A stretch of DNA of 64,000 nucleotides from assembly GCA_011800155.1 (NCBI GenBank), contig CM022369.1:3286001-3350000 (forward strand). The letters run 5' to 3'. Below the pieces are notes generated by a model, which saw nothing but the letters and a program-made list of their open reading frames with translations, was not told where the DNA came from and made no database searches. Shown here piece after piece: positions 44,666 through 64,000 of the stretch (position 1 is the stretch's first letter; every line of letters starts with the position of its first letter). Source of the stretch: Flammulina velutipes (lineage: Eukaryota; Basidiomycota; Agaricomycetes; Agaricales; Physalacriaceae). The position numbers and the translations under genes were made by a program.

Positions 44666-46105
44666 TTATATATCCCGGACAAGGAGAGAGATGTATTCCG
44701 GATGATCATCAGGATCTTCTCTTCCAGAGCCTTCGACTTTGGTATACCCCGCCTCGATGAGCAAATCCTGGGGAGGAATAGACCCAACGAGTGAGGTCAG
44801 TGCTTCATGGGCAGACGCTGCCGTCCTCTTGGAGGCCAAGTCACGAAGTAGAGCATCAAGCTGCGGTATAGACGTCTAGAGCGATGAGCGGAACGTCCAA
44901 TACCTGCTTCTAAAAACTTACCTCCACGAAAGAAAAGTAGTAGCACAAAGACCACAAATCAAAGAAGAATGGATTGTAGGGCTTTCGTTCTGCCATGACA
45001 GTGAAGTAGGGTCGTCGGCAGTTTTCGGCCTCGAAAGGTGGTTCATAACACACACAGTCATCGTATGGTGTGTCCTCTGGGAAACATTTGGACACTTCAA
45101 AATCAATCATCCAGACTCGCGGTTTTCTTGACGGAATCTTCCCCAAGAGAGCAGATTCTGGAATCCATTCGAGCATAAAGTTGCTGTAGAAGGCATCCTA
45201 TAATCATTCAGGTTATGAGTTTCGATCCGTCACCGAGCCACTCACTAGATGCGCGACGCGTTTCTCGTGTATGAAGGCCAACGACTGTGAAGATTGTTAT
45301 AGCATATCGCTCGCAGATAGATTGTATGTTTCGCACCTCCAATGCCTGCAGCAATATATCCATCAAGTCTCCCACCGAGTTCTTATTCCAGTATGCAGAA
45401 TCCCCGAAGACTTCGCTCAGGTTTACGCCACTGAGGGGAAACAGACAAAAGGTAATGTCGAGCCATTGAATCTCCTGCAGCATAGGCAGGACACCACTGT
45501 CGGAGAACAACGTCGAAGGAGAAGTAGCCAGTCGGCGGAGCGCTTCAAGAAAATTCTTGCCGTCTTCACCCACGACGACTACGCGACACATTACGTCCTG
45601 GCCGCTGTCAGTGCGTAGCGGTCGATTCACTGGCGTCTGTAAGTATACATCAGTGCTTCTGCTCCACAAGCACCAGCGAGTTTCGTACCGTACAGAAGTA
45701 TTCTCGATGGCGGGAGTGGGAGAGGGTGAGAGTGACCTTGTTATACGACGGTCCCACGAAAATGAATCCATTTGCGTCCCTCTCCTGGCCAGGTTGAAGC
45801 CTGACCTTGACAAATGGTTCACCTGCCCATTTCCAGGATGTTAACCGGTAGCGTGCGAGTACAGGACCAAGGCTATCCCATATCTTTTCTGCACTCCAGA
45901 TTTCATCGTAGTTCGCGTAACGCCAGTCTTCCAACGTTTTAGGGAGCTAGAGGGAGTTTAGATTCGAGACGGCTTAACCAGGTGTGTTCTATGCACTTGC
46001 CCGAGAACGCAGTCGTCGATCCCGTAAACTAGGATATACAATGTAAGAGACTGAAAGTAGAATCAAAGCAGATGCACAGTAAAGGCGCGGTGTCACGGAT
46101 GACAT
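44666..46105 (-). CDS. K1: membrane-anchored kinase-fold protein
   Basis: First of seven paralogs. Exons on the minus strand: 46105-46001, 45946-45689, 45636-45337, 45284-45246, 45197-44922, 44875-44666, all phase 0, 395 residues. A single N-terminal hydrophobic segment (YCASALILLSVSYIVYP) precedes an Arg-rich stop-transfer stretch. Kinase-like marks are a catalytic loop RVAHLDAFYSNF (Asp and Asn spaced as in HRDxxxxN), a DFE in place of DFG (VWMIDFEVSKCF) and FFFDLWSLCYYF like the helix-F Asp motif. The N-lobe is poorly conserved. Intron 1 starts with GC (GCAAGT). It is divergent from L1. A kinase, pseudokinase or other fold remains possible. Confidence 0.85.
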
Positions 46106-46483
46106 TGCCCTCAGTTTGTAAAGCCCAGGTCGTGGTTGGAAACAGAGCTATCGTTTGCTTGTCGGACCGTGATCCGGATCTAACAACCTTGCACGATCTT
46201 CCCACGGACTAGGTTACAAACGAGCAGAATTTATCAAGCCTTTCTGACATGTCTTCCTTGCAGGTACCCCATACCATGTAAATCACTTTCTCGCCAACCT
46301 GAACCATCACAAGTAAGGCGCTTATCCTTCGGAGTTCCAATGTTTGTTGTTGTCATGCGGTCTTTCGTGGGAATTGAGCCACACGTCGCTGTTCGGGTAT
46401 AAAAGACTACACAGCTCTCTGGAATCTCCCTTTCCTCGACTATCATCTCCTTGAATCCCCTCTCCTCAGAACACCCAGTTGCC
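46106..46483. promoter_or_regulatory. Divergent K1-L1 promoter
   Basis: 378 bp between start codons. The K element TCGGACCGTGATCCGGA lies at 46162-46178, 57 bp from the K1 ATG. On the L side GGTCTTTCGTGGGAATTGAG, then CCACACG, then TATAAAAG at 46398-46405 are shared with the other L promoters. Confidence 0.7.
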
Positions 46484-46959
46484 ATGCCTGTGAGTGTTTA
46501 CCTATGACCGTCAATCAAGCTCACGTCACCTCTACCGTTCTCGTGCACAGCTTCAATCGCCCACATACAATGCGAGTACCATTTCAACGAACATTTCCCA
46601 AACACTTCTAACAGCAGATCCAGGGTAATTGGATGATAACTCGGAGCACTGGCGTCTACGTTGGCAATTTTATTGGTTTCATCGAAAGCAGTGGCCATGC
46701 GAGGGGCGGGAGAGCGCCACGCGGTACCACAGCAAGGCGCGCCGTAAGTCTGCATGCATATGGATCGAAAAGAATTGCCCTCACTATGCCTTAGATTATC
46801 TTGCGTCTCCGCTTCGGTAATGGGGGGACAGAGTTGTTCCCGTTGGATTCATTGACGAAGACACAGTGAGTCGCCACCCGTTTATACATAGTCGGCTCAC
46901 TGGTAGTGACTATCATTTTTTCTAGGAATGAGGTGACTTACGACGCTCCACCGAGTTAA
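46484..46959 (+). pseudogene. L1: small L-family gene with one nonsense codon
   Basis: Same four-exon layout as intact L3: 46484-46489, 46551-46571, 46624-46865, 46926-46959, with identical sizes for exons 1 to 3 (6, 21 and 242 nt). It keeps the family core GVYVGNFIGFIESSGHARGG. A TAG at 46792-46794 replaces the AAG (Lys) of L3 within SKRIALTMP. The frame is open before and after it, so the loss is recent. Intron 2 has a GC donor (GCGAGT). Function unknown. Confidence 0.72.
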
Positions 46960-47195
46960 ACTGCGCTATGTCTGTCTGTTCCCCCGCCACATAAATAAAT
47001 CCAAATGTACTACATATATCATATCTCTCCATCGAGACAGTCGTCCCAGCGCTTGCACTATATACATCAAATTCGAACAAATGATGCCATTCAAATTGAA
47101 AATGGAACATCAGAGAACATACAGATATAATATTATAAGACAGCTGTGTTGATGTGGCGGTGGAAATTAAAACACGACTCAGTCTAGATCATGAA

Positions 47196-47340
47196 TCTGG
47201 TGGAGAGGCGTAGGTCACCGGTTCCTAGAAAAGAAGTGTGTGGTCTTAGTAGAATGATGAATGGAAAGGAAAGAAACTGACTCTATGTGAGTCAACAGCG
47301 CTCGACGGTACCGATGATGTCTCCCTATTGCCGGTGCGAA
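47196..47340 (-). pseudogene. L4: 3' fragment of an L-family gene
   Basis: Minus-strand remnants of the last two exons: FRTGNRETSSVPSSAVDSHR aligns with the end of exon 3 of L2, and EPVTYASPPDS with the last exon (stop TGA near 47196). The 5' exons and promoter are missing, and the fragment directly follows the 3' end of K2. Confidence 0.6.
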
Positions 47341-47450
47341 AATGAAGGGAATCCGAGAATCTAAGGCGTGACAAGGGCAAGGGCAATAATTTGTTACAGA
47401 AATTTTCTAGCTCAAGTCGGAGTCTAGGCAGACCTCCTGCAGTGACCTGC

Positions 47451-48869
47451 TCATAGATCCCGGACAAGGAGAGAGATATATTCCGAATAATCATCGGGAT
47501 CTTTTCCAGAATCATGGATTTGGTATATCCTGCCTCGACGAGTAAGTCCTGAGGAGGGATAGAGCCCAAAAGTGAGCTCAGTGCTGAATGGGCGGAAGCA
47601 GCCGTCCGTTTAGAAGCCAGATCGTGAACAAGATCATCAATCTGTGGTATAGATGTCTGTAACGGCGAGATGGAGGATGAGAATAATGTAGAAGAATAGG
47701 TTTGAAAGAACCCTCACATTGATGAAAGAGAAATAGTAGCACAGAGACCATAGGTCAAAAAAGAACGGGTCGTATGGTTTTCGTTCTGCCATGACAGTGA
47801 AGTGAGGTCGCTTGTAGTATTCGACCTCCTCGAAAGGTGGCTCATAACACACGCAATCATCATATGGTGAGTCCTCTGGGAAACATTTGGACACTTCGAA
47901 ATCAATCATCCAGACTCGCGGTTTTCTTGAAGGAATCTTCCCGAGGAGAGCAGATTCCGGAATCCATTCGAGCATAAAGTTGCTGTAGAAGGCATCCTTG
48001 AATCATTCAGGTTATGAGTTTCGTTACGTCGAAGAGTCACTCACTAGATGCGCGACACGTTTATCGTGTATGAATGCCAAGGACTGAAGACACTGTCATT
48101 GGATATCGTGCGTAGAGAGATTATATACTTCGTACCTCTAACGTCTGAAGCAATATATCCATCAAGTTTCCCACCGAGTTCTTGTTCCAGTATGCCGAAG
48201 CTCCGAATACTTCGCTTAGGTTTACGCCACTCAGAGGAAAGAGACAGCATGGGAAGGACGCCATTGTCAGAGAACAATGCCGAAGGAGAAGTAGCCAGTC
48301 GGCGGAGCGCTTCAAGAAAATTCTTGCCGTCTTCACCCACAACGACTACGCGACACATTATGTTCTGCCCGCTCCCAGTGCGTAGCGGTCGGTTCACTGG
48401 CGTCTAGAAGTATACATCAGTGCTTCTGCTCCACCAGCACGCCCAAGCTTTCGTACAGTGCAGAAGTACTCTCGGTGGCGGAAGTGTGAGAGGGTGAGGG
48501 TGACCTTGTTATACGACGGTCCCACGAAGATGAATCCATTTGCATCCCTCTCCTGGCCAGGTTGAAGCTTGACTTTGACGAATGGCTCACCAACCCATTT
48601 CCACGATGTTAACCCGTAGCGTGCGAGCACAGGACCAACGCTATCCCATATCCTCTCTGCACTCCACATTTCATCGTAGTTCGCGCAACGCCAGTCCTCC
48701 AGTGTTTTGGGAAGCTGGGATATTTCTAGGCTTGGTGTCGGATGAATTAAAACATCTACCTTACCCTAGAGCGTAGTCGTCGATCCCGTAATTTGGGGTA
48801 AATGATGTATGAGACTGACAACAGCACTAGTGCGGATGCGTAGTAGAGTCTTGGAGTCACGAATGACAT
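47451..48869 (-). pseudogene. K2: kinase-fold paralog inactivated by deletion
   Basis: Exon layout as in K1: 48869-48765, 48714-48457, 48403-48136, 48083-48045, 47996-47718, 47656-47451. Exon 3 is 268 nt, not 300. A 32-bp segment coding QEIQWLDITF in the other copies is missing, which shifts the frame. A second one-base loss lies in the last exon after GYTK. All splice sites are still intact, and the promoter element is present as TCGGACCGCGATCCGTA at 48926-48942. Intron 1 has a GT donor (GTAAGG). Confidence 0.85.
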
Positions 48870-49440
48870 TGTATTTAGTTTGGAAAGTCCTGGTCGTGGT
48901 TGTAAGAAGAGATTATGTTCGGTTTTCGGACCGCGATCCGTATCCGCAACCGTCTTTCTGTCAGTGTGGGAGTTGACGTTGCATATTGAGCGCTTATTGA
49001 GCCACCCAGGAGTACGAAAGGTCTGAACGATTCTCAGATTTTTTTGCATCCCTCGAATCTCAAGCTGAAGCCTCTAGTCCGCATTAAGTTCCATCAGTCT
49101 CTGAGGCCCCGGGATGTACGCCAACCAAGCTGTAAATCTTTGTACATCTGTCATTTGAAGTTGAGATTGTACGAGAGAGCCTAGAAGATGAGGGTAATTC
49201 TACGCGTATTAGGCATATAAGCAACCTGTCAGCCTGGAGTGGTATGCTTGGATGATAAGGAAGGCTTCTGAATGTGCGTGACAGAATAAACGGAATGATA
49301 TTTAGACCAATAACTTAGGCACGTCAACGTTTGAGAATTCCACATTACTACCTCTATGGCCATCCGCGCCCTTGCGCCACACTTCGTGAGATGGCGCAGA
49401 GATGTCGACGGCCGTCGGCGGTGGTCCTCTGAGGACAGGG
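48870..49440. other. Intergenic, K2 promoter and K3 3' flank
   Basis: The K-type element at 48926-48942 lies 57 bp from the K2 ATG. No L gene is present here. The rest shows nothing recognised. Confidence 0.5.
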
Positions 49441-50942
49441 TCAGTATATGACGTGTGGGCAGATAAACTGTTTGAACTCACATGCTCGTACATCCGGGCG
49501 GACAAGGTGAGAAATATATTCAGGATAGTCATTAGGATCATCTCGTCCAGACTCGTGAACCTTGGTATACCCCGCCTCAACGAGTAAATCGTGGGGAGGA
49601 ATAGACCTTAGCAACGCGCCAAGTGCTTCATGGGCGGCCGCTGCTGTCCGCTTAGAGGCCAAATGGTGTATCAGAGCGTCAAGCTGCGGTATAGACGTCT
49701 AGAATGACAAGATGGATGAGGAGAACATCGCAGTATTGTGGAAGAACCCTCACATTGATAAATGAAAAGTAATAACACAAAGACCAAAGGTCGAAGAAGA
49801 ACGGATCATACGGTTTTTGTTCCACCATGGTATGGAAGTATGGTCGTCGGTAATATTCGATGTCCTCGAAAGGAGGTTGATAACACACGCAGTCGTTGTA
49901 TGGCGCCTCCTCCGGGAAACAAACGGCGACTTCAAAGTCGATCATCCAAACTCGCGGTTTTCTCGACGGAATCTTTCCGAGGAGGGCAGATTCTGGAACC
50001 CATTCAAGCAGAAAATTGTTATAAAACGCGTCCTTGAATGCATCGATCAGTCAGGCCACAGGTCGCCTCCTGGGGTTTCACTTACTCTATGAGTAACGCG
50101 TTTCTCGTGTATAAATGCCAATGACTACAAACCATGTCAATGAATATCGCGCGCGCGCTAGGAAGAGCGTACCTCCAATGCCTGGAGCAATATATCCATC
50201 AAGTCTCCCACCGAGTTCTTGTTCCAGTATGCGGTACCCCCGAACACTTCACTTAGGTTTATGCCGCTCATAGGAAACAGACAAAAGGTGATGTCGAGCC
50301 ATTGAATCTCCTGCAGCATGGGAAGAACGCCACTGTCGGAGAACAATGTTGAAGGAGATGTCGCCAATCGCCGGAGCGCTTTCAGATAGTTGTTGCCGTC
50401 TTTACCAATGACGACTATGCGACACATAACATCTCTGCCGTCATCAGTACGTAGCGGTCGGTTCACTGGGGTCTATAGGCAGATGTCAGTGACTTCGTTC
50501 CCACAAGCATGCGCGACTTAGCGTACCGCACAGTGGTACGTCCGGCGGGAGTCAGAGAGGGTGACCTTATTGTACGACGGTCCGACAAAGATGTATCCGT
50601 TTGCGTCTCTATCTTCGCCAGGTCGAAGCCTCAGCATGGCGAATGGATCGCCTAACCATTTCCATGACGTTAACCTGTGCCGTGCTAGCATAGGACCAAG
50701 AAGATCCCATATCTTTTCTCCATTCCATATTTCATCTTCGTAGTAGTTCGCGCAGCGCCAGTCATTCAATGTTTCTGGAAGCTGGGAATACTTATGTTCA
50801 GACTTCAAGTTGGTATCGGTTAACATTGAAGATCCACCTTAGAGCGTAGCCGCCGATCTCGTATTTTGGGGTATATGAGGTATGAGACTGACAGCAGCAC
50901 TAATGCGGATGCGTAGTAGAGTCGCGGCGTCACGAATGACAT
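49441..50942 (-). CDS. K3: kinase-fold paralog with longer C-terminus
   Basis: Exons on the minus strand: 50942-50838, 50781-50527, 50472-50173, 50124-50086, 50032-49754, 49698-49441, all phase 0, about 411 residues. The catalytic loop reads RVTHRDAFYNNF, nearer the classical HRD than K1. The DFE Asp is kept (VWMIDFEVAVCF). The usual stop after the LVR-D end is absent, so the frame runs on for about 16 residues (CEFKQFICPHVIY); alternatively a splice near 49490-49500 restores a short end. Intron 1 has a GT donor (GTGGAT). The promoter element is 41 bp from the ATG rather than 57. No divergent L partner. Confidence 0.8.
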
Positions 50943-51297
50943 TGGACTCAATCCTAAGTATATGGTGGTTGGAAGATGGTTCTCGGACCGTGATCCGGGC
51001 CCACACGCAGTTATCGTACGCCTTTTTCTTCTTTACTTCTAAGTCACAGTGGCTGTCGTTCGTAGGGCTGGCACGAGTAATTCGCACAGCCCGGGTTGTG
51101 GTTACACAAGATTCCGCGCGAACGAGATAGCATCTGCGAGAGCTGGACAGGATACGTTACAAGTAACTCAGAACACCGAGCTCTTGGGGAATAATGCATT
51201 GCATATGTCGTAAAAGATCCTAAGAGATAATTGTACATTTGACTGGTGCAGATCACACCACCTTAACTGCCAACAATAGAAGAATAAAACATCCACT
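50943..51297. other. Intergenic holding a small degenerate copy of RSP5 sequence
   Basis: The K element lies at 50983-50999. About 51060-51150 resembles RSP5 exon 4 and its flanking introns at about 43700-43785 (shared GAGTAATTCGCA, GCCCGG, GGTTACACA and CGCGAACGAGATAGCATCTG). Confidence 0.5.
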
Positions 51298-52652
51298 TCA
51301 TCCACAGCAACAACTTCTCTTCTCAGTCTCCTCCACCACCGGCTCAGGTATTTTCTCTTCCTCCAGAACAAGTGGTTTTTCCATCGTGTGCTTCTCACAG
51401 CACCCATCACATGCCTTGCCACAACCACATCGACCGCCTGGACAACCACATTGTCCTCCACAGCAGTCAAGCTTCGGCAGATTCACAGGCTCAGTAGCCC
51501 TAGAGGCACCAATCTTGGGTGGTTCAGGAAGGCGAGCAGCGAGCGTATAGAAATCTCGAAGCAGCCCGGTCGACGCTGTAGGAAGCTCGACGCCCATCTG
51601 GTTATCGACACACGACCGGCAGGAACCATCGGTGCAATTCCCATGTTCCGCCGATGCGTGCTCTGGCCCACGATGGTCTACACATCCCGGGCAGCTACAT
51701 TGCAGGCCGCAGGTACATCCTGAGCCCGCGATGGAGGTGATTTCGCTAATGGACGGCATGGTGCCGAAGATCGGTACTTCGTCGACACCTTGGAATTCTG
51801 AGATGTGGATGGGGGGAAGCTCGACGCGGGGCGGCTCGGGGGGAGGGTGCGTGTGTTTGCGACGTTTGCGGTTGGGGCTGTTTGGACGGGCTATTAATCT
51901 TGGTTTGGGAGGGAGTGTTTTGCGCCTGGGAGGTTCTGGTGTTGCTGAGGCCGCTGAAGAGGATGGGGAGCCCCGTTCAAAGAGTTCAGCAGCTTGGGCG
52001 AGCGCTGTTAGACCACTGCAGTTATCGTCGTTCGAGGGAGTTATGTTGTCGTCCTTCATCCCTAATAGGCATTTGCATCGTCGAGAATTCTTGCATTTAC
52101 AAGGGTTCAAAAGCGAGTCGACTGCAGATAATTAGACACACGTTCAGCACCCAAATACCAGACTCACCTAGCTGACGTGTATCTGCAGGCTTTGAGATGT
52201 TCGATGCAGCCTCCAGTATATCCTTGATGCCATTAGGAAGAGCCGGGGTGATGGGAATAAAACGTTTTCCTGGACGTAGATCAGGATTCATCCAGGCGAT
52301 GATACTGAGAAACGCACCTTTTGAAGAGCCCGTCGCAGGCGCTTGGCTTGACGTCCCTTCACCAGAATCGTTGCATGTACATTTTGAATGCACCTTCCGC
52401 GACTGACGCAACTGTCGGCACTTCTCGCACTGCGAGACTGGCCGTCCCTTCTTCTTGATTTCAAATAGAGGCCTCTCGGAGTGGTGACAGGATGATGAAC
52501 GATGGCCTTTAATGCATGATTCGCTGCCAGATGTAAGATAACACGGCAGCGAGGAAGGGGAAATTTACCAGGCGAATTTCTTGCTGTTCACGAAGACCTA
52601 TGACATTGACGTTAGTTCAATACAAGAGAAAGAGCTTTACAAGACATGCCAT
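51298..52652 (-). CDS. Copper-fist transcription factor (Ace1/Mac1/Cuf1 type)
   Basis: Copper-responsive DNA-binding regulator of metal uptake or detoxification genes. Exons on the minus strand: 52652-52650 (ATG only), 52597-52569, 52523-52168, 52121-51298, about 403 residues. The N-terminus MVFVNSKKFACESCIKGHRS followed by RPLFEIKKKGRP is the copper fist with its Zn-binding Cys and the GRP minor-groove motif. Two Cys clusters follow (GCTCGLQCSCPGC; CCGGQCGCPGGRCGCGKACD), suited to Cu(I) binding. The start as given uses a 52-nt intron with a GC donor (GCATGT) right after ATG. A 43-nt GT intron would give MACLVFVN instead. It lies inside the K array. Confidence 0.9.
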
Positions 52653-53064
52653 GGCTCGTCTTGCATAAAAGATGCAGACTCTTGTGGCTAAGACCAAGAG
52701 CGGCTCGGCCCTTTTAGTCCAATTAGGTACGGCCGTATGCCGGTGTGCCGGTGGCGCTCGATTAATTCAAGCTCGAAGTGAGCATTTCTCACGCGAAAAG
52801 GGTAAATGCCTTTCAGGAGCACTTCTCCCAAATGAGGATGGTGTGCATGTCATGTCATTGATCACTAAACTGATGTGGCGTTACACGTTCTCTATTGTTC
52901 TACTTAATCTCCAAGTACAATTTAGTGGATATGTCTGATCAGTAATATATATGTTGGGCACATGAGATGTTAAGCATTAATATCTTAGGATGTCTTTCTT
53001 GGCAGTGAACCAGTATAGTAGTACAGCCGTGTTTATGTGGCGGGGGAAATTGAGACACAACTCT
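52653..53064. other. Intergenic
   Basis: Promoter side of the copper-fist gene and 3' flank of L2. A short plus-strand ORF at 52672-52938 is not supported. The part near 53030-53064 resembles the 3' flank of L4. Confidence 0.4.
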
Positions 53065-53546
53065 CTAGTAGCCAGAGCGTGGCGGAGAGGCGTAGGTCAC
53101 CGGATTCCTGGAAAAGGATTCCATGTCGTCTTAGTGACTTGATGAATGGAAAGAAATGAAACTGACTCTGTCTGGATCAACGACACCAACGGTACCGCTA
53201 ATATCTCCCCATTGCCAAAGCGAAGACGAAGAAGAAGCTAAAGCTCGGTGAGGGAGAGAGTTCTCGCAGAAATATATAAAGAATTACAGCATGGTCCACA
53301 GTGGTATGGCGCGGCGCTTTCCCGCCCCTTGCATGACCACTACTTTCGATGAGACCCATAAACTTGCCAACGTAGACACCGGTGTTGTGGTTAAAAATCC
53401 ACTTACCCTGAATATGGTATGAGAAATGCTTGGAAAAGATACGCTGAACAACACCCACGTTGTACGTAGACGATCGCACCTGTAATATGTAGGAGAGCAG
53501 TAGATGAGACCTTGGTTAGCAGCCAGAGCTGTGCACTCACAGACAT
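53065..53546 (-). pseudogene. L2: L-family gene with a frameshift
   Basis: Exon layout on the minus strand as in L3: exon 1 ATG TCT at 53546-53541, a 21-nt exon 2, exon 3 with NTGVYVGKFMGLIESSGHAR, and the last exon from 53107 to the stop at 53065 (ending YASPPRSGY). Between DHAV and LLLRLRFGNGE the sequence is one base shorter than in L3, which breaks the frame. An unrecognised intron could rescue it, but none fits. Divergent from K4. Confidence 0.65.
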
Positions 53547-53928
53547 GGCTACTTGAACAGAGAGGATCGAGGGAGGTGATGGTCGTGAAATGTAAGTGTA
53601 GACATGGAATTTTTCAAGTGCTGTACAGTCTTTTATACTAACGTGTGGCTCAATGATTCCCACGGAAGACCACAGGGCCATGGTAGATATTTTGAACTCC
53701 GAAGGATAAGCGCCCTACGCGTGAGGCATATTGCGAGAAAGACAAGTTACAGCTCTCGAGTTGGCTTACAAGTCGGAAAATCCAGGGAAAAGCCTCAGAA
53801 CTTGGGCGTATTGTCGCTAGGTCTGTCCGTGGGAAAATGCAAGAGGTTGTGGTTATCCGGATCACGGTCCGACAAACAAACGATAGCTCTGTTTCCAACC
53901 ACGACCTGCACTTTACACACTGAGCGCA
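53547..53928. promoter_or_regulatory. Divergent L2-K4 promoter
   Basis: 382 bp between start codons. The K element TCCGGATCACGGTCCGA is at 53856-53872, 57 bp from the K4 ATG. On the L side TATAAAAG is at 53637-53630, with the shared CCGTGGGAATCATTGAGCC block before it. Confidence 0.7.
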
Positions 53929-55370
53929 ATGTCATTGGTGACACCGCGTCTCTACTACGCCTCCGCTTTGATTCTGCTTTCTGTCTCATACGTCGTATAC
54001 CCAAAACTACGTGACCGACGACTGCGTTCTCGGGCAAGTCCAGAGGATACGTTCGATCACCCCCACGTGATTCTAAATCTTCTCCAGCTGCCTAAAACAT
54101 TGGAGGACTGGCGCTACGCGAACTCGGATGAAATGTGGAGCGGAGAAAAGATATGGGATCTTCTGAGTCCTGTGCTCATGCGCCACCAATTGACATCCTG
54201 GACATGGTTAGGCGAGCCATTCGCCATGCTGGAGCTTCGACCTGGCCAAGAGAGGGACGCCAACGGGTTCAATTTTGTGGGGCCATCGTATAACCAGGTC
54301 ACCATCTCCGAAACCCGACATCGGACATACTTCTGCGCGGTACGCAGCGTGCTTGTGGGAACACAGTCACTCATATATGCCCATAGACACCAGTGAACCG
54401 ACCTCTTCGCACTGGCAGTGGTAAAAGTGTTATGTGTCGCGTAGTCGTCATTGGTAATCACGGCAAGAATTATCTTGAAGCGCTGCACAGACTCGCTACA
54501 TCTCCTTCAACATTGTTCTCCGACAGTGGCGTTCTTCCCATGCTGAAGGAAATCCAATGGCTCGATATTACCTTTTGCTTGTTTCCGCTAGGTGGCGTAA
54601 ATCTGAGCGAAGTGTTCGGGGATACCGCAGATTGGAATAAGAATTCGGTGGGAGACTTGATGGATATCTTGCTCCAAGCATTGGAGGTACGTTCTCCCTA
54701 GTGCGCGCACGATACTCATTGACATGGTTTGTAGTCATTGGCATTTATACACGAGAAACGCGTTACTCATAGAGTAAGCGAAACCCCAGGAGGCGACCTG
54801 TGGCATGACTGATTGATGCATTCAAGGACGCGTTTTATAACAATTTTCTGCTTGAATGGGTTCCAGAATCTGCCCTCCTCGGAAAGATTCCCTCGAGAAA
54901 ACCCCGAGTGTGGCTGATCGACTTTGAAGTCGCCATTTGTTTCCCAGAAGACACCCCATACAATGACTGTGTATGTTATCAACCACCTTTCGAGGACATT
55001 GAATGCTACCGACGACCGTACTTTCATGCCATGGTGGAGCAAAAGCCATACGATCCGTTCTTCTTTGACCTGTGGTCTTTATGCTATTATTTCTCATTCA
55101 TAAATGTGAGGTTTCCTTTGAAACATCCCTGTGACAAGCTCATCCATTTCGTTTTAGACGTCTATACCGCAGCTTGACACTTTGGTTCATGACCTAGCGT
55201 CTAAACGAACAGCAGTAGCTGCCCATGCAGCACTTAGCTCGCTGATAGCGTCTATTCCTCCTCACGATTTACTCGTCCAAGCGGGGTATACTAGGCTCGA
55301 AGATTCTGGAAGAGATGATCCCAACGACTATCCGGACCATATTTCTCACCTTGTTCGACGGGATCTATAA
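53929..55370 (+). CDS. K4: kinase-fold paralog, intact
   Basis: Exons 53929-54033, 54088-54339, 54387-54686, 54735-54773, 54827-55105, 55158-55370, all phase 0, 395 residues. The N-terminal anchor is YYASALILLSVSYVVYP. The catalytic loop reads RVTHRDAFYNNF and is split by intron 4 right after HR. The metal-binding Asp is in VWLIDFEVAICF, and the helix-F motif is DLWSLCYYFSF. Intron 1 has a GC donor (GCAAGT at 54034). L2 lies head-to-head upstream and K5 follows in tandem. Confidence 0.87.
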
Positions 55371-55741
55371 GCGTGTAAGTTCAGATGACCTATCTTCCTA
55401 TACGTGATATGAACCCTCTTCTACTTAGATTACATATGCCGTTAACAGATTTTGTCTGTCATCTTGCACTGCGTGACACAGTGTGGCGTGTAGACAATGG
55501 GGCGCAGGACGTCTCATACTCTTTTCAATATTTGATGTACTATATCTAAGGCTTCTTTGAATACAATTAGCCAAACTGCGGCTATGTGCCAGGAAAAACC
55601 AATAGTCGATGCTCGTTTTCAACTCATTTCCTTCATTCCAAACCGTGGGAAGATCCTGTATTAGTGAATCCGGATCACGGTCCGACAACCAAACCAAATC
55701 CCTCTTTCCAACCACGATCAGTGCTTCGCAAACTAAGCGCA
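55371..55741. promoter_or_regulatory. K5 promoter
   Basis: Element TCCGGATCACGGTCCGA at 55669-55685, exactly 57 bp before the K5 ATG. No L gene is present. Confidence 0.55.
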
Positions 55742-57178
55742 ATGCCATTCGTGACGCCACGACTCTACTATGCATCCGCGCTAGTGCTGCTATCAGTCTC
55801 GTATATCATATACCCTAAATTACGGGATCGACGCCTCCGTTCTCGGGCAAGTACAGAGGACACACCCGGGCGAGTCTAAACATATTCTAGCTTCCTAAAA
55901 CATTGGAGGACTGGCGTTACGCGAACCACGATGAAATATGGCGTGCAGAAAAGATATGGGATAGCCTTGGTCCTGTGCTCGCTCGCTACCAATTAACATC
56001 CTGGAAATGGGTGGGAGCACCATTCGCCGAAGTGAAGCTTCAACCTGACCAGGAGAGGGACGCAAACGGATTCATTTTTGTTGGACCCTCGTATAACAAG
56101 GTCAACCTTACCCTCTCTCACTCCCGCAACCGACAATACTTTTGTGTGGTACGCAGGCCGCATGTACTCGGGAGAATAAAGGCACTCATACATTCATGTG
56201 CTAGACACCAGTGAACCGACCGCTACGCACTGCCAGCGGGCAGAACGTTATGTGTCGCGTAGTCGTCATTGGTAACGACGGCAAGAATTATCTTGAAGCG
56301 CTGCGCAGACTCGCTACTTCTCCTTCAACATTGTTCTCCGATAGTGGTGTTCTTCCCATGCTGCAGGAGATTCAATGGCTCGATATCACCTTTTGTCTCT
56401 TTCCTCTAAGTGGCGTAAATCTGAGCGAAGTCTTCGGGGATTGTGCATACTGGAATAAAAACTCGGTGGGAGACTTGATGGATATCTTGCTCCAGGCATT
56501 GGAGGTACGAAAGATATCTCCTCCGTACCGCACGCGCCTGGCTTACTGATAACGAGTCTAGTCTTTGGCCTTCATACACGAGAAACGCGTCGCGCATCTA
56601 GTGAGTGACTCCCCGACGGAACGAACTCATAACCTGAATGATTCAAGGATGCCTTCTACAGCAACTTTATGCTCGAATGGGTTCCGGAATCTGCTCTCCT
56701 CGGAAAGATTCCGTCAAGAAAACCTCGAGTCTGGATGATTGATTTTGAAGTGTCCAAATGTTTCCCAGAGGACACACCATACGATGAATGTGTGTGTTAT
56801 GAACCACCTTTCGAGGCCGAAAACTGCCGACGACCATACTTCACTGTCATGGCAGAACGAAAGCCGTTCAATCCATTCTTCTTCGACTTGTGGTCTTTAT
56901 GCTACTACTTTTCTTTCGTGGAGGTAAGTTTTAGAAGCAGCTACTGGATGTTCCGCTCAACAATTTAGACATCTATACCGCAGCTTGATGCTCTGGTTCG
57001 TGACTTGGCCTCCAAGAGGACGGCAGCGTCTGCCCATGCAGCATTGAGCTCGCTTGTTGGGTCTATCCCTCCCCTGGAATTGCTCAACGAGGCGGGGTAT
57101 ACCAAAGTCGAAGGCTCTGGCAGAGAAGATCCCGACAATTATCCGGAATACATTTCTCTCCTTGTCCGGGATCCATGA
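55742..57178 (+). CDS. K5: kinase-fold paralog, intact
   Basis: Exons 55742-55846, 55891-56148, 56205-56504, 56562-56600, 56648-56923, 56969-57178, all phase 0, 395 residues. Anchor YYASALVLLSVSYIIYP, catalytic loop RVAHLDAFYSNF, DFE in VWMIDFEVSKCF and helix-F FFFDLWSLCYYF. Intron 1 has a GC donor (GCAAGT at 55847). The 3' flank continues into a lipocalin-like gene, and this whole stretch is mirrored by K6 and a lipocalin fragment on the minus strand. Confidence 0.87.
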
Positions 57179-57526
57179 GCAGGCGAGTGCAGTCTATGTG
57201 TCGAGCTAGATATGTTAAGTAAGCTGACCTTCCTTCATCCAGTCCGCCAGTGCACTGTCGATATGTCAATATGTTATGCTTCATTTCGCTTTGCTTATTT
57301 AATGGGCGCGCTGGACACGAATTGTCCCCAGCGAAGGTCCTACTATTACTATGAAATGTCGCTAAGTCCTTGCTGTCATTTTCAATACCATTCCGCACTA
57401 CTGTCAAGCAAACTCGACGGCCTGTTATTCAAGCAATTTGTGAATGTTGACATGGACATCTTGCTTGCGCTCGTTTTTATACTTAATAAAACAAACGCCC
57501 TCAATATTCTCTCTACCTTTTGCGCC
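57179..57526. other. Spacer between K5 and the lipocalin-like gene, arm of an inverted repeat
   Basis: About 57179-57420 is homologous in inverted orientation to about 58640-58875 (for example GCTGGACACGAATTGTCCC occurs in both). The ORF running through it is a repeat shadow, not a gene. Confidence 0.6.
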
Positions 57527-58244
57527 ATGTCCGTCCCTCAAGAGTTCAACATCTCGAACCTCAGTGGAGTTTTCACCATGGTAGGCATCTCTACCTATGA
57601 CGAACTTGCTTCACCTCATCTCTGTTTCCAGAACAAGTCACTCAGTGACTCTGCCGACGAAATGCTTCGTCTTCAGGGCATCAGCTGGCTCAAGCGACGT
57701 GGTATCGGCCTGGCCACCGTCACGTTGAGCATCAACCACTACAAAGACAAGGACGGCGTTGAACACATCGACATCAACCAGACCCTCACCGGAGGCATCC
57801 CCGGAACGACCGAGCTCCGAACGTTGAATTGGGAAGAGCGACACAGTAAAGACCATATCTTCGGCGCGGTAATCGCGAAGGCAAGAAGGGTCAGAGCAGG
57901 CGAGCTTGACGTGGAATGGCTCAAGAAGGGCTGGACTGAAGATACTTATGAGCATGGATTAATCCAAACGTGCGCTGAGAGCGACACTGGTAAAAGTGGG
58001 ATTGCATGGAAGTCTAATCAGGTCTGTCTGTCCGGGTTGGAGTCAGTTCAATCGATGTTTAATTGGGACGGTAGATATGGGGCATCGAGATGGTCAAAGC
58101 AGAAAGGCGCTACGTCCGACGTGTCAGGTTTATTGGCCCAGGCGGCGAAGACATTCAAGCCAAACTTGTCTATGACTACAGTGTGTGCATATTTCATCCA
58201 GATATCCCGGTCTGACAGTGGTTATAGATGGCCCAAATAAATGA
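57527..58244 (+). CDS. Lipocalin-like unknown protein
   Basis: Four exons, 57527-57580, 57632-58021, 58075-58180 and 58219-58244, give 191 residues starting MSVPQEFNISNLSGVFTM. The pattern (a small N-terminal strand, LQGISWLKRRGIGLATVTLS, HIDINQTLTGGIPGTTE, NWEERHSKDHIFG, YVRRVRFIGPGGED, KLVYDYMVIDG) is that of a beta-barrel protein common in Agaricomycetes, which I recall as lipocalin-like. The uninterrupted ORF here hides three introns: the introns remove VGISTYDELASPHLCFQ and restore IWGIEMVKAERR. Function unknown. Confidence 0.72.
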
Positions 58245-58875
58245 CATAGATAGTATGGTATCTACACGTCTCCTTAAGAATACTCTATCCAAACTTAGTA
58301 TTCGCGCTATTCATTAACGGCTCGTAGAATGTCCTGTAAACTGGATAGCATGAGAATGTGTACGAAGGAATGGTACCGCAGAGTCCTCACCAGTGATGGA
58401 AGACTGAGCATACACATCTCATCGCTTCCCTTTTCCCGCGTTCACGGTAAGCATGTACATGTACATGATGAGCACGTAGCGATCTACAGTAGCACACGGA
58501 GGTGTTCAAGAGCTGGCTGCGCGTCAGCATGCATTCCGAGCAAAGGTCGATACCACGTCGCTTGAGCCAGCTGATGCCCTGAATGCGAAAGATTTCGTCG
58601 GCAGAGTCACTGAGTGACTTGTTCTAGAAACAGAGATGCCAGGCGGTCTTGCAAGTTGACATGAGAGCGGAATGAAGAATGGTATTGAAAGCGATAGCGA
58701 GGAGATGGAGACAATGTAGGACATTCACTGGGACAATTCGTGTCCAGCGCACCCCATAAGTAAGCAAAGCAAAATGAAGCAAAACATATCGACATATCGA
58801 CAGCGCGCCTGCGGACTAGATGAATGAGGGTCAACTTAACGTGTTTACCTCGACAGATGAATAGCACTCGCCTGC
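58245..58875. other. Loop and second arm of the inverted repeat
   Basis: 58245-58544 shows nothing recognised. From 58545 to 58875 the minus strand repeats the lipocalin exon 2 start and the K 3' flank. Confidence 0.6.
58545..58623 (-). pseudogene. Truncated lipocalin-like fragment
   Basis: The minus strand reads NKSLSDSADEIFRIQGISWL and KRRGID after a TAG splice acceptor, nearly identical to exon 2 of the gene at 57527. Exon 1 has been lost by a deletion and the similarity ends after about 26 codons. Confidence 0.8.
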
Positions 58876-61800
58876 TCATAGATCCCGGACAAGAAAAGAA
58901 ATGTATTCCGGATAATTGTCGGGATCATCTCTTCCGGAGCCTTCGACTTTGGTATAACCCGCCTCGATGAGCAAATCCTGAGGAGGAATAGACCCAACGA
59001 GCGAGCTCAATGCTGCATGGGCAGACGCTGCCGTCCTCTTGGAGGCCAAGTCACGAACCAGAGCATCAAGCTGCGGTATAGACGTCTAGAGCGATGAGCG
59101 GAATGTCCAATAACTGCTTCTAAAAACTTACCTTCACAAAGGAAAAGTAGTAGCACAAGGACCACAAGTCAAAGAAGAATGGATTGAACGGCTTTCGTTC
59201 TGCCATGACAGTGAAGTATGGTCGTTTGTAGTATTCGACGTCCTCGAAAGGTGGTTCATAACACACACAGTCATCGTATGGTGTGTCCTCTGGGAAACAT
59301 TTGGACACTTCAAAATCAATCATCCACATCAGGAAGCCCGGAGGTTGTATCCCGAGGCTCCCGGAGGCTCTAGAGCCCTGAGAACCAGGGAGACAACCCC
59401 CCATATCCGGAAAGGTCTGGAATGCTCTGAAGCAAGGGTCCAATATCCGGAGACCTCTGGAGCGCTGGGAGCTCAGGAGTCTCTGGAGACTCTGGTGCTC
59501 TGCCTGCTCCAGCGCTCTCTAGAGACTGCCAGAGGTAGAGACCTGCAATATAGATCCTGTAGCTATACTGTAGCTTTGTTACATTGCACACATTGAATGA
59601 AAGGGAGCACCGAAACGATAGCATTGGTCTAAATACAACAAAGACTACGGTACATTATCATAAGAAAAGGATATGGTGCGTCGCCTGTCCAAATTTCCTC
59701 ACTCGCTCTCTACACATCATCAGACCACCATTCTCAAACGGCCAGCTTTGGACATTCATTTCCCTAGGCGCGCAATGCGCTGCTTGTAGGTGTCCGTCGG
59801 ATGGCTATGACATGCCAGCCTATGGACGAACTCAGCGCTAATAACGTAGGCGTCAATAAAAACTTGCTTTCGGGCCACCGTTCGCGAAACATCCTCGTTA
59901 CGGCCGTCGTTCGTAGGTTTACGCACTGAGTGTGTGTGATTGCAGCGCTCGTCTCCGTGGTGTATAGGGGTTCCCGGATAACAGAAAACTAACCCAACGG
60001 AAACTAAGAAATATCATTAGCTGCGTGGGATATACACAAATGCGAGAATGGACGTACGAAGGATGAAACATACGAGGGACAAGCAAGAGCCGCGGCAGAT
60101 TGGACAGACACATCCTCGCGTCCGTCCGACACACTCTAGAAGATGAACGGGGGACGTCAAGAGGGAGCAGGATTGTATAAAAACGGGAAAACATACCAGG
60201 GGACCAAGAATCATAGAGACTAAACACTTGGGTCATGTCAGTCCAAGGGCAGAGCTGGAGAGCGAGAACAGACTCACCAACGATATCCACTTCGCCCGAG
60301 CAACCTGCAGAGGAAACACCCCATGCCGTGTCGACCGTCCTGCGTCCGCGCCTCTGCTATTCAAGGCAGTCGCGACAGAAATTGAAAAAGGAGGCAAGAA
60401 GGACTCTAAAGGAGCAACCGGAAGGAATGCTCAAGACAGTCAGATAATGGGGAGAAGGCAAGAGAGGTGGCCCAGGTGGCCCAGGCAAGACGTTCCGTTT
60501 TGACGCGACGACCATGTGATCTATCGGAACGGACTTTGAAATGGACTTGCACGATTTTTGTTCACATCAACAGAGCGCCTGACGTCGATAACCATACAGT
60601 AAGTAACTCTAAAGCAATCTGACAGTGTTTGATACATGTAAAGCCTTCTACTATACCAATGACATTGTATTTAACTGTAATTATACAGATTACACTTTGT
60701 ACGACAGGAAATAGTAATCCCGCCAGCTCTGACTCCCAGAGACGAAGGAGACAGAGAGTCTCCAAGAGTCTCCGGATGTCCTGGCGCGAGCTCTGGAGAG
60801 CTCCTGGAGCTCCTGGAGCTTTCTGCCCTTGCTTCGGCGGCTCTAAACTGTTCCGGATCAATGCCCTAGGTTACAGAGCCTCGGGAGCTATCCCGAGCCC
60901 ACAGCCACGATCTGGACCAAAAGAGGGTTTCCTGATGCAGACTCGCGGTTTTCTTGACGGAATCTTCCCCAAGAGAGCAGATTCTGGAATCCATTCGAGC
61001 ATAAAGTTGCTGTAAAAGGCATCCTTGGATCATTCGAGTTATGAGTTTCGTTCCGTTGGTCCGTCGGGGAGTCACTCACTAGATGCGCGACGCGTTTCTC
61101 GTGTATGAAGGCCAAGGACTACGAAGATTGTCATAGTATATCGCATGTAGGGATTGGACGCTTCGTACCTCCAATGCCTGGAGCATGATATCCATCAAGT
61201 CTCCCACCGAGTTTTTAATCCAGTATGCGCAATCCCCGAACACTTCACTCAGGTTTATGCCACTAAGAGGAAACAGACAGAAGGTAATGTCGAACCATTG
61301 AATCTCCTGTAGCATGGGAAGGACGCCATTGTCAGAGAACAATGCCGAAGGAGAAGTAGCCAGTCGGTGAAGCGCTTCAAGAAAATTCTTGCCGTCTTCA
61401 CCAACGACGACTACGCGACACATAACGTTCTTTCCGCTATCAGTGCGTAGTGGTCGATTCACTGGGGTCTACGTGTATGTATGAGTTGTTTCAGTTTTCA
61501 TGAGTACGTCAAATTTGCTTACCGCACAAAGGTATGTCTGATGTCTGAAATTGGATAGGGTCACCTTGTTGTATGACGGTCCCACAAAGATGAATCCGTT
61601 GGCGTCTCTCTCATGGCCATGTCGGAGCTCCAACATGACGAATGGGTCGCCTACCCATTTCCAGGATGTTAACTGGTGGCGTGCGAGCATAGGACCAAGA
61701 CTATCCCATATCTTCTCTCCACCCACTATTCGATCTTCATAGTCGCTCGCGGAGCGCCAGTCGACCAGTGTCTTGGGAAGCTAGAATATGTTCAGACATG

Positions 61801-61930
61801 GTGTTGGTCGAACCCCAGGATCTACCTTAGAACGGAGCCGTCGATCCCGTAATTTGGGGTAAAGGATGTACGAGACTGATAGCAACACTAGCGCGGATGC
61901 ATAGTAGAGTCGTGGCGTCACGAATGGCAT
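58876..61930 (-). pseudogene. K6: kinase-fold paralog split by a DNA transposon
   Basis: Exons on the minus strand: 61930-61826, 61780-61523, 61468-61169, 61118-61080, exon 5 as 61023-60938 plus 59326-59132, and 59085-58876. Removing the insertion (59327-60937) and one copy of the CA duplication restores an open frame of the usual size, so the transposon is the only lesion I see. The break falls in the codon for Trp of VWMIDFE, just before the metal-binding Asp. The loop is RVAHLDAFYSNF. Intron 1 has a GT donor (GTAGAT). Divergent from L3. Confidence 0.88.
59327..60937. mobile_element. Non-autonomous DNA transposon, 1611 bp, inserted in K6
   Basis: Terminal inverted repeats CATCAGGAAGCC (59327-59338) and, on the other strand, CATCAGGAAACC (60937-60926) match at 11 of 12 bases. 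A CA dinucleotide is duplicated at the target (59325-59326 and 60938-60939), judged against the uninterrupted paralogs. Both subterminal 200-300 bp regions are packed with TCTGGAG/CTCCAGA and TCCGGA words and share CTCCCGGAGGCTCT-like blocks. No transposase ORF. A 2-bp duplication and repetitive ends would suit the CACTA/CMC group, but this is not certain. Confidence 0.85.
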
Positions 61931-62336
61931 TGCGCTTAGTTTGCGAAGCCCTGATCGTGGTTGGAAGGAGGGTTTTGGTTCGGTTGTCGGACCGTGATCC
62001 GGATCCACTCAACCATCCATTAATACTGGATTTTCCCACGGGCTGGAATGAAGGAAACGACTTGGAAACGAGTATCAACTATTGGTTCTTCTTAGCACAT
62101 ATCCTCGGTTTGGCTATTGATTATCTCTCCCAAGACTTCGCCACCGCAAGTAAGGCGCTTAACGTTCGGAGTTCCAAATATTTGCTATCGTCATGCGGTC
62201 TTTCGTGGGAAGTGAACCACACGCTGCCACTCACGTATAAAAGGCTGTACAGCTCTCCGTATTCTCCCTTCCTCGACTATCATCATCGTTTCTGACCATC
62301 TCATCCGATCTCTTTTCATCAGAACACCAAAGAGCC
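61931..62336. promoter_or_regulatory. Divergent K6-L3 promoter
   Basis: 406 bp between start codons. The K element is at 61987-62003, 57 bp from the K6 ATG. L side: GGTCTTTCGTGGGAAGTGAA, CCACACG, TATAAAAG at 62236-62243. Confidence 0.7.
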
Positions 62337-62808
62337 ATGCCTGTGAGTGTGTGCATATACTGTGTTTGGACAAAGCCTATACAACGCCTCTGCAACAGCC
62401 TTTATCTTCCACCTATGATGTGAGTACTATGTCAACGTACTTCTGCCTAGCGCATTCAATCATCCATGTAGGGCCGCTGGGCCATAAGACTCAACAATGC
62501 TGTCTATGTTGGCGTTTTTGTCGGTTTCCTCGAAACCAGTGGCCATGCGAGGGGTGGGAAAGCGCCGCGCTACATTACAGCACAAGATGCTGTAAGTCTG
62601 CATACATATGGATGTCATGAGATTGCTCTAACTATTCCTAAGATTCTTCTTCGTCTTCGCTTTGTCGACGGACATACAACGGGGTTCAAGTTGGCGTTGT
62701 TGACCAAGACACAGTAAGTCTCATCTCTCATGACTACAATGATGGGAACTCTTGTCTAGGGATCCTGTGACCGCCTCTCCGTATCAGAGCCCAGTGACTA
62801 GCACATAA
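62337..62808 (+). CDS. L3: small L-family protein, intact
   Basis: Four exons, 62337-62342, 62399-62419, 62472-62713 and 62760-62808, give 105 residues. The first exon codes only Met-Pro and the second seven residues. Core segments are NNAVYVGVFVGFLETSGHAR, GGKAPRYITAQDAVSLHTYG and CHEIALTIPKILLRLRFVDG. There is no signal peptide or membrane helix; the alternation of hydrophobic residues suggests a small beta-rich fold. I do not recognise the family. It is the only L copy here without a lesion. It sits head-to-head with K6 behind a strong TATAAAAG. Confidence 0.75.
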
Positions 62809-63391
62809 ATACACATGTAGTCTCTCCCAAGAAAGTCTTCCTAGCATTTTGCTATGTCATGTATATCAAAGATGTAACACCACCTCCCAGTTTCATGGCG
62901 CGCGCATCATGACTGACTGACATGACTCTATTCAGAAAACCCCCCTGAAAGGTATCTCGGACCTGCGTGAGAAATACCTGTCACTGACTAGGGTAAAGTT
63001 CGAAATGAAATCAATGGAGCGCCACTAGTACTAGACAATTGCTTTAGCGAACTCGGTAACAGTGCCAGTGTCCATCTTGTATAGATTAAAATCGAGGTAA
63101 TAAGACTTCTGGTGCACAACCGCTAGAAACCACTTGTGTAAATAGATCATAGAATGATTACGAGATCATACAACTTCTGAGAGCAGAGGGTAGAAAAGGT
63201 AATCTGAGCATAGAAGTATGGAATCATATTGAAAGTAATAAGTACGTCCGCAGTGGGAACCCCTTGCCACACAACGTAAGATGACGGGCGAAATCTATCA
63301 ACGGAGCGCCACCGTCATACCAGCCTGAGCATATGGTCTAGAAGAAGATTCATATCATGTATAGGCAGATAGGCCATCAGAGCTTACATGC
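62809..63391. other. Convergent spacer between L3 and K7
   Basis: About 580 bp, no ORF or repeat of note. Confidence 0.4.
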
Positions 63392-64000
63392 TCATAGATC
63401 CCTGCGGACAAGATGAGATATATATTCGGGATAGTCGTCAGGATTCTCTCTTCTAGACTCATCAATTTTGGTATACCCCGCCTCGACGAGTAAATGTTGG
63501 GGAGGAATAGACCCAATGAGAGAGCTCAGTGCTGCATGTGCAGATGCTGCTGTCCTCTTGGAAGCCAGGTCGTGGACTAGAGCATCAAGTTGCGGTATAA
63601 ACGTCTAGAATGATGAGCGAAACATCTAATGACTACTTTATAAACTTACCTCTACGAAGGAGAAATAATAACACAAAGACCATAGGTCAAAGAAGAATGG
63701 ATCGTATGGCTTTCGTTCCGCCATGACAGTGAAGTGCGGTCGTTTGTAGTATTCAACGTCCTCGAAAGGTGGTTCATGACACACGCAGTCATCATATGGT
63801 GTGTCCTCCGGGAAACAGTTGGCCACTTCAAAGTCGATCATCCAGACTCGCGGTTTTCTCGATGGAATCTTTCCGAGAAGCGCAGATTCCGGAACCCATT
63901 CGAGGAGAAAGTTGCTGTAGAAAGCATCCTTGAAAAAGTCAGGTTACAGCATGTTCGTCCCGTCGGGACTTCACTCACTCGATGCGCTACGCGTTTCTCG
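63392..64000 (-). CDS. K7: kinase-fold paralog, 5' part outside window
   Basis: Visible exons on the minus strand: exon 4 from beyond 64000 to 63979, exon 5 63928-63650 (279 nt) and exon 6 63604-63392 (213 nt). The frame is open in the visible part. It carries the DFE region (SRKPRVWMIDFEVANCFPED) and the helix-F motif DLWSLCYYFSF. The catalytic His is followed by Arg (KRVAHR), the HRD-like form. It ends LVRRDL. Confidence 0.82.

Follow-up and report, generated by a model that had tools for sequence, protein, structure and literature searches.

The K and L Genes of the Cluster

The last 20 kb of a 64,000-nucleotide stretch of the Flammulina velutipes genome (GenBank assembly GCA_011800155.1, contig CM022369.1, here C2, positions 3,286,001 to 3,350,000; the whole stretch is referred to as the window) carry seven loci of a kinase-like gene, K, together with copies of a small gene, L. 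Three times an intact L and a K start back-to-back, with 378 bp (K1/L1), 382 bp (K4/L2) and 406 bp (K6/L3) between their ATGs, and the pairs lie in both orientations, so that the gene models reproduce exactly the spacings, and confirm the orientations, proposed by an earlier sequence-only reading of the window. The K genes are homologous, the L genes have common intron phases, and another contig (C1) carries one more intact pair, the fourth, so that the pairing is above chance.

The three intact cluster copies of L are L1 (46484..46959, + strand), L2 (53065..53546, - strand) and L3 (62337..62808, + strand), divergent to K1, K4 and K6, respectively. Each has five exons with intron phases 0,0,0,2, and the spliced frames comprise 83, 86 and 88 codons rather than the 105 codons first attributed to L, a figure for which we can only guess that L3 had been read through its 51-nt third intron (88 + 17). 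L4 (47140..47347, - strand), initially counted as a fourth copy, is a relic of an L 3' end with 77% identity to the 3' end of L2 over 212 columns, and spliced alignment of L at this site gave no gene model.

Five of the seven K loci are intact. K1 (44666..46105, - strand; spliced alignment with phase check), K4 (53929..55370, + strand) and K5 (55742..57178, + strand) have precisely the 395 codons expected, while K3 (49441..50942, - strand) has 411 and a longer C-terminus, and K7 (63392..64000, - strand) has 397; only the 3' part of K7 lies within the window, its ATG being at 64834 in the following sequence. K3, K5 and K7 have no L alongside. K2 (47451..48869, - strand) is broken: compared with K4 it carries a short deletion and two frameshifts, and its spliced frame contains 10 stops, the terminal one included. 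K6 (58876..61930, - strand) has its exon 5 split by an insert of ~1.6 kb. The count of seven K and four L in 20 kb therefore stands for the K loci as such, with K2 broken, K6 split and K7 crossing the window end, and falls short for L by the relic L4. DNA similarity to K1 gave eight matches, with K6 accounting for two as its separated halves, so that the seven K are homologous DNA. All six intact K models checked (K1, K3, K4, K5, K7 and the C1 copy) have six exons, with five introns all in phase 0. GC-AG introns (donors GCAAGT, GCGAGT) occur as the first intron of K1, K4 and K5 and as the second intron of L1; K2, K3, K7 and the C1 K have a GT donor at the same first intron.

A Fourth Pair and the Age of the Pairing

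The pair on C1 shows the same head-to-head layout, a similar intron plan (L phases 2,0,0,2) and 396 bp from ATG to ATG with the start codon chosen for L. Its K groups with the cluster K genes in the K tree (node 100/99), and the spliced protein of its L is 43% identical to L1, which as a query within the 5.5 kb C1 locus hits this L at E 9e-12. Between C1 and cluster copies the proportion of synonymous differences (pS) is 0.75-0.88, the synonymous divergence (dS) is uncorrectable in seven of eight comparisons and 4.39 in the remaining one, and the 5' part of K6 is likewise saturated at synonymous sites against the C1 K; the non-synonymous divergence (dN) is 0.57-0.67 for L and 0.33-0.35 for K. 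Because the synonymous sites of both genes are saturated between the C1 and C2 copies, the pairing is, as judged from this divergence, older than the cluster and predates the split of the two sets of copies. The C1 pair raises the finding above a plain tandem array. The refuting condition set by the sequence-only reading, that L elsewhere rarely lies next to K, turned out in favour of the pairing at the single further L that the genome searches yielded.

Duplication History and Selection

K1, K4 and K6 share homologous upstream DNA that extends across L and beyond, to about -770/-790, which together with the old C1 pair of the same layout bears out the proposal that the module was duplicated as a unit. 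Upstream of K5, similarity to the K6/L3 intergenic region extends no further than about -174, and the lack of an intact L at K2, K3, K5 and K7 reflects loss, truncation or duplication without L. The dS values of L and of the adjoining K, i.e., 0.75 for L1-L2 vs 0.89 for K1-K4, 0.93 for L1-L3 vs 0.65 for K1-K6 (exons 1-3), and 0.88 for L2-L3 vs 0.79 for K4-K6, are roughly consistent with joint duplication. The dN/dS ratio is 0.35-0.47 in all three comparisons of cluster L and 0.11-0.18 in all ten comparisons of K, and by these ratios both proteins are under purifying selection.

A locus evolving by birth and death, with K and L as the two parts of a self/non-self recognition system or of a selfish killer/rescue system, would also fit the local amplification of copies in either orientation, as well as the pseudogene, the relic, the insert and the two catalytic-loop subtypes of K (HRD and HLD, see below). 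As selection is on average purifying, not diversifying, and an old single pair exists outside the cluster, we consider this very improbable.

The Shared Intergenic Regions

The intergenic regions of K1/L1 (46106..46483), K4/L2 (53547..53928) and K6/L3 (61931..62336) align end to end, a central conserved block included, and contain the same conserved blocks, namely TATAAAAG, a TATA box on the L side that lies 80-95 nt before the L ATG in the three cluster pairs, the K-side dyad CGGATCACGGTCCG (position -71 relative to the K ATG), and two inverted copies of CGTGGGAA. The exact 14-mer of the dyad has six sites in the 38.1 Mb genome, five of them in the cluster before K genes and one on a further contig (C13:183353-183366, the sole exact site outside the cluster), compared to none for the reversed control. 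The looser pattern CGGA-N6-TCCG occurs six times in the window, each time before one of K1-K6, the K2 dyad being a one-base variant of CGGATCACGGTCCG. CGTGGGAA resembles the CSL motif, and [TC]GTGGGAA is found at 11 sites in the window, seven of which are upstream of K genes; the CSL motif GTGGGAA is described as bound by Cbf12 of Schizosaccharomyces pombe in the accessible text of one study (PMC3516552), and we regard CGTGGGAA as a candidate CSL-type site, as a lead only.

The conserved promoter blocks favour joint regulation of K and L and are likely to have a function, while shared ancestry alone could preserve such blocks for a time at the dS of 0.37-0.96 seen within the cluster. With 378, 382, 406 and 396 bp, all four pairs are divergent genes less than 1000 bp apart, and conserved divergent fungal pairs separated by 100-1000 nt tend toward functional relatedness, according to the available part of a survey (PMC2871058).

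An Old Divergent Pair or a Copied Neighbour

The explanation that we favour, with a probability of roughly 0.6 for the whole, is that K and L are an old divergent pair for which a common intergenic region of ~380-400 bp would drive the expression of both genes. The pair predates the divergence between the copies on C1 and those on C2. On C2 the whole unit would have been multiplied, in either orientation, and the array would then have partly decayed through loss of L, truncation and insertion. K would be a kinase-fold protein of an Agaricomycetes family, probably catalytically impaired and perhaps with an N-terminal membrane segment. The anatomy of the locus, the modelled splicing pattern, purifying selection, the pairing at each intact L found and the age of the pairing are observed; that K and L are co-expressed from the shared region and serve one process is what we infer from the sequences. 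Joint regulation is the best-supported claim, and the suggestion of it in the sequence-only reading finds indirect support in the conserved blocks and the K-side dyad, motifs that do not extend to the C1 pair.

All four intact L found in the genome stand head-to-head with a K. This count comes from whole-genome protein searches with L3, L2 and the C1 L as queries, L1 not being among them, in which the best candidates were scored, so that more L are possible.

Several points weigh against the favoured explanation. Fungal genomes have many divergent neighbours this close together, and duplication by itself is enough to copy a neighbouring gene. The genome-wide E-values that tie the C1 L to the cluster L are weak (0.02 with L3 as the query; 0.007 to L1 and 0.03 to L3 in the back-search), and both its ATG and its first intron (phase 2, acceptor GAG) were picked by hand, a choice on which the 396 bp rests. 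The C1 intergenic region contains neither the dyad nor CGTGGGAA, as is also the case for K7, and it shares words with the cluster regions no more often than shuffled sequence does (11 7-mers vs a mean of 7.2, with 29 of 200 shuffles as high; one 8-mer vs 1.5 in shuffles; no 9-mers). No L stands beside the three intact genes K3, K5 and K7, a six-frame profile scan found no credible L near 11 more distant K loci, and L3 is intact although its neighbour K6 is split. Since K3, K5, K7 and the 11 distant loci have none, K does not need an adjacent L.

The distant loci scanned were nine on contig C7 (503k, 707k, 731k, 733k, 740k, 742k, 744k, 767k and 1026k), C4:407k and C1:2148k. On C7 the scan consisted of nine partly overlapping stretches and covered ~0.64 kb upstream of the K start at 707k, 733k and 740k, where an L further out would be cut; two weak K matches, C1:3639k and C1:3658k, lie outside the scan. 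In the region C7:503k-1027k at least nine K relatives form a second group, with no L in the stretches examined. An L-like match next to the C1:2148k relative of K (E 0.11, 32 profile positions) is antisense to another frame, presumably that of a P-type ATPase, and was rejected as chance, as were weaker profile matches in sequence stretches labelled L032/L038 (E 0.76), L047, L037 and others up to E 10.

Much of this would also be expected if L had merely been a divergent neighbour of K from the start and had been carried along with the duplicated segment, without common function. Three intact cluster K without L, L3 beside the split K6, the absence of L at all 11 distant loci and the merely truncated intergenic region retained by K5 fit such hitch-hiking, as does the K tree, in which K genes with and without an L do not form separate groups (4 changes, with 500 of 500 shuffles as low, on a midpoint-rooted tree with long-branch warnings). 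Nevertheless, the C1 pair has kept its layout and a similar spacing after synonymous saturation, and every intact L found is still paired, so that hitch-hiking is possible and to be taken seriously, yet the less probable account.

K Is Probably an Impaired Kinase

Twenty database homologs of K were collected, at 30-40% identity, of which 18 are named, presumably all from Agaricomycetes, and two (P0015, P0019) are unnamed. HRDAF..NF and DFE are invariant across all 20, and each matches Pkinase (PF00069) at E<=10 (best 1.1e-11); K4 itself matches PF00069 with E=4.7e-4, below the curated cut-off. An AlphaFold2 model of the Termitomyces homolog P0003 reached a mean predicted local distance difference test (pLDDT) score of 81 and a predicted template modelling score (pTM) of 0.82, and Foldseek with this model retrieved kinases such as PAK4 (best E 1e-10, template modelling score 0.47 by query length and 0.58 by target length). 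A protein-kinase fold of K is supported by these matches and by the model of the homolog.

Whether K is active is another matter. The catalytic loop has HRD and the Asn in K3, K4, K7 and 20/20 homologs, and HLD, with Asp and Asn retained, in K1, K2, K5 and the C1 copy; the two subtypes lie side by side in one cluster. The DFG of active kinases is replaced by DFE in K1-K5, K7 and all 20 homologs, and by DFD in the C1 K. At the position of the usual beta3 Lys (VAIK), Arg is found in 17 of the 17 homolog rows that reach the site, in all five intact cluster K and in the C1 K, the site being assigned by position, without superposition, from an Arg mid-strand in residues 130-138 of the P0003 model; two distant relatives, C4:407k and C1:2148k, have Lys there. 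Because of DFE or DFD in place of DFG, Arg at the usual Lys position, and HLD in K1, K2, K5 and the C1 K, K is probably an impaired or pseudo-kinase of doubtful activity. The label kinase-like is thus appropriate as far as the Pkinase matches and the fold of a homolog are concerned, and questionable for activity.

The N-terminus of K consists of a hydrophobic stretch followed by arginines. Its 15-residue hydropathy is 1.69-2.05 in the four K tested (K1, K3, K4 and C1), which makes the membrane anchor initially proposed plausible; in 19-residue windows the N-terminal stretch scores best in only three of six intact K (K1, 1.58; K4, 1.35; C1, 1.71), and not in K3, K5 and K7. Among the homologs, 6 of 20, one of them a fragment (P0019), reach a hydropathy of 1.6 within the first 60 residues. 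The N-terminus is compatible with a membrane anchor, at borderline scores.

L as a Constrained Small Protein and Candidate Partner

L is a small basic protein, with 9-12 Lys and Arg vs 4-6 Asp and Glu, and 21 columns are invariant across the four sequences. Searches at E<=10 returned no Pfam family for any of the four L proteins and no PDB chain, and L3 as a lone query had no match in the protein collection. A profile of the four sequences found one unannotated metagenome open reading frame, P0021, among 73 candidates sharing words with the profile rows; it reads through introns and comes without genomic context. As this search reaches predicted proteins that share short words, and small intron-rich genes are easily missed, so far unseen L homologs may well exist in other fungi.

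The lack of an annotated homolog and of Pfam and PDB matches could mean that L is not a gene and that the conserved frames are promoter sequence or remnants. Against this stand the common intron phases in 3/3 cluster copies and the related plan on C1, frames that are open after splicing in 4/4 L, and an own conserved TATA box in the three cluster pairs, and because dN/dS within the cluster is 0.35-0.47, these ratios argue for L being a translated, constrained protein. That L is not a gene is accordingly hardly credible. As part of the explanation favoured above, and with the same confidence, L would belong to a so far undescribed protein family.

In a stronger form of that explanation, L would be a dedicated regulator or ligand that binds the kinase-like domain, e.g., to inhibit or activate a (pseudo)kinase switch. 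Kinases of such an impaired sort often work through partners. The old pairing and the purifying selection on both proteins speak for this form, as does the K family, which retains the catalytic-loop Asp and Asn and the invariant DFE with Arg at the usual Lys position. On the other side, AlphaFold2 on an L frame reached a mean pLDDT of 41 only, the strands in that low-confidence model carrying no weight, and the cluster contains five intact K vs three intact L; we consider a dedicated regulator unlikely, and that L binds K is a speculative guess, as are the roles of cargo, inhibitor or substrate suggested for L in the sequence-only reading. It is similarly doubtful whether small basic proteins like L constitute a new family of dedicated partners of membrane-bound pseudokinases, with which they would form a lineage-specific two-component module for signalling or recognition, made of K-L units that undergo birth and death and share one bidirectional promoter.

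Other Features of the Locus

The insert in K6 (59327-60937) has 13-nt terminal inverted repeats that are 92% complementary, and resembles a non-autonomous DNA transposon. Between K5 and K6 lies a gene (57518-58000, + strand) without a Pfam match at E<=0.1, which to us recalls fungal proteins annotated as LCCL-domain; an inverted partial copy of it, read by eye, near 58530-58640 suggests that the K5-K6 segment may have grown through inverted duplication. A Cys-rich open frame adjoining K3 (51298-52059, - strand), likewise without a Pfam match at E<=0.1, recalls, in our view, copper-responsive transcription factors. An open frame with three WW domains (42583-43692, - strand) is, we presume, the N-terminal part of a ubiquitin ligase of the Rsp5/NEDD4 type.

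Comparison With Known Systems

Mushroom-forming fungi carry expanded kinase families. FunK1 (Pkinase_fungal, PF17667) is an expanded fungal kinase-like family. K4 has no match to PF17667 at E<=1, and 3 of the 20 homologs match it at E<=10, with a best E of 0.0064 vs 1.1e-11 for Pkinase. K belongs by its homology (30-40%), HRDAF..NF, DFE and Pkinase match with an uncharacterised kinase-like family of Agaricomycetes, with entries from Dentipellis, Termitomyces, Trametes, Daedaleopsis, Dichomitus, Lenzites, Sphagnurus and Tricholoma, and differs from it by the HLD of K1, K2, K5 and the C1 copy vs HRD in 20/20 homologs. Searches of the open-licence PMC literature brought up nothing specific on such a family or on such a pair. 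The FslK fungal kinases are related to tyrosine kinases and expanded in Agaricomycetes, and their exact functions are said to require experiments (PMC3937382); the words HRD and DFG are absent from the accessible text of that paper. All 20 K homologs match PK_Tyr_Ser-Thr at E<=10, a point of likeness to FslK.

The locus displays a divergent pair that was copied as a unit and then decayed, and in one kinase-like clade the small neighbour has been retained across old duplications, which offers a concrete handle on the role of such genes, namely a candidate partner and a candidate shared promoter. While the fungal bidirectional-promoter pairs described in the available part of the survey, such as histone pairs and ribosomal L13/S16, are conserved across species, and the K-L pairing is seen among paralogs of one genome with an L of no known family, both are arranged head-to-head, a few hundred bp apart, and conserved (PMC2871058).

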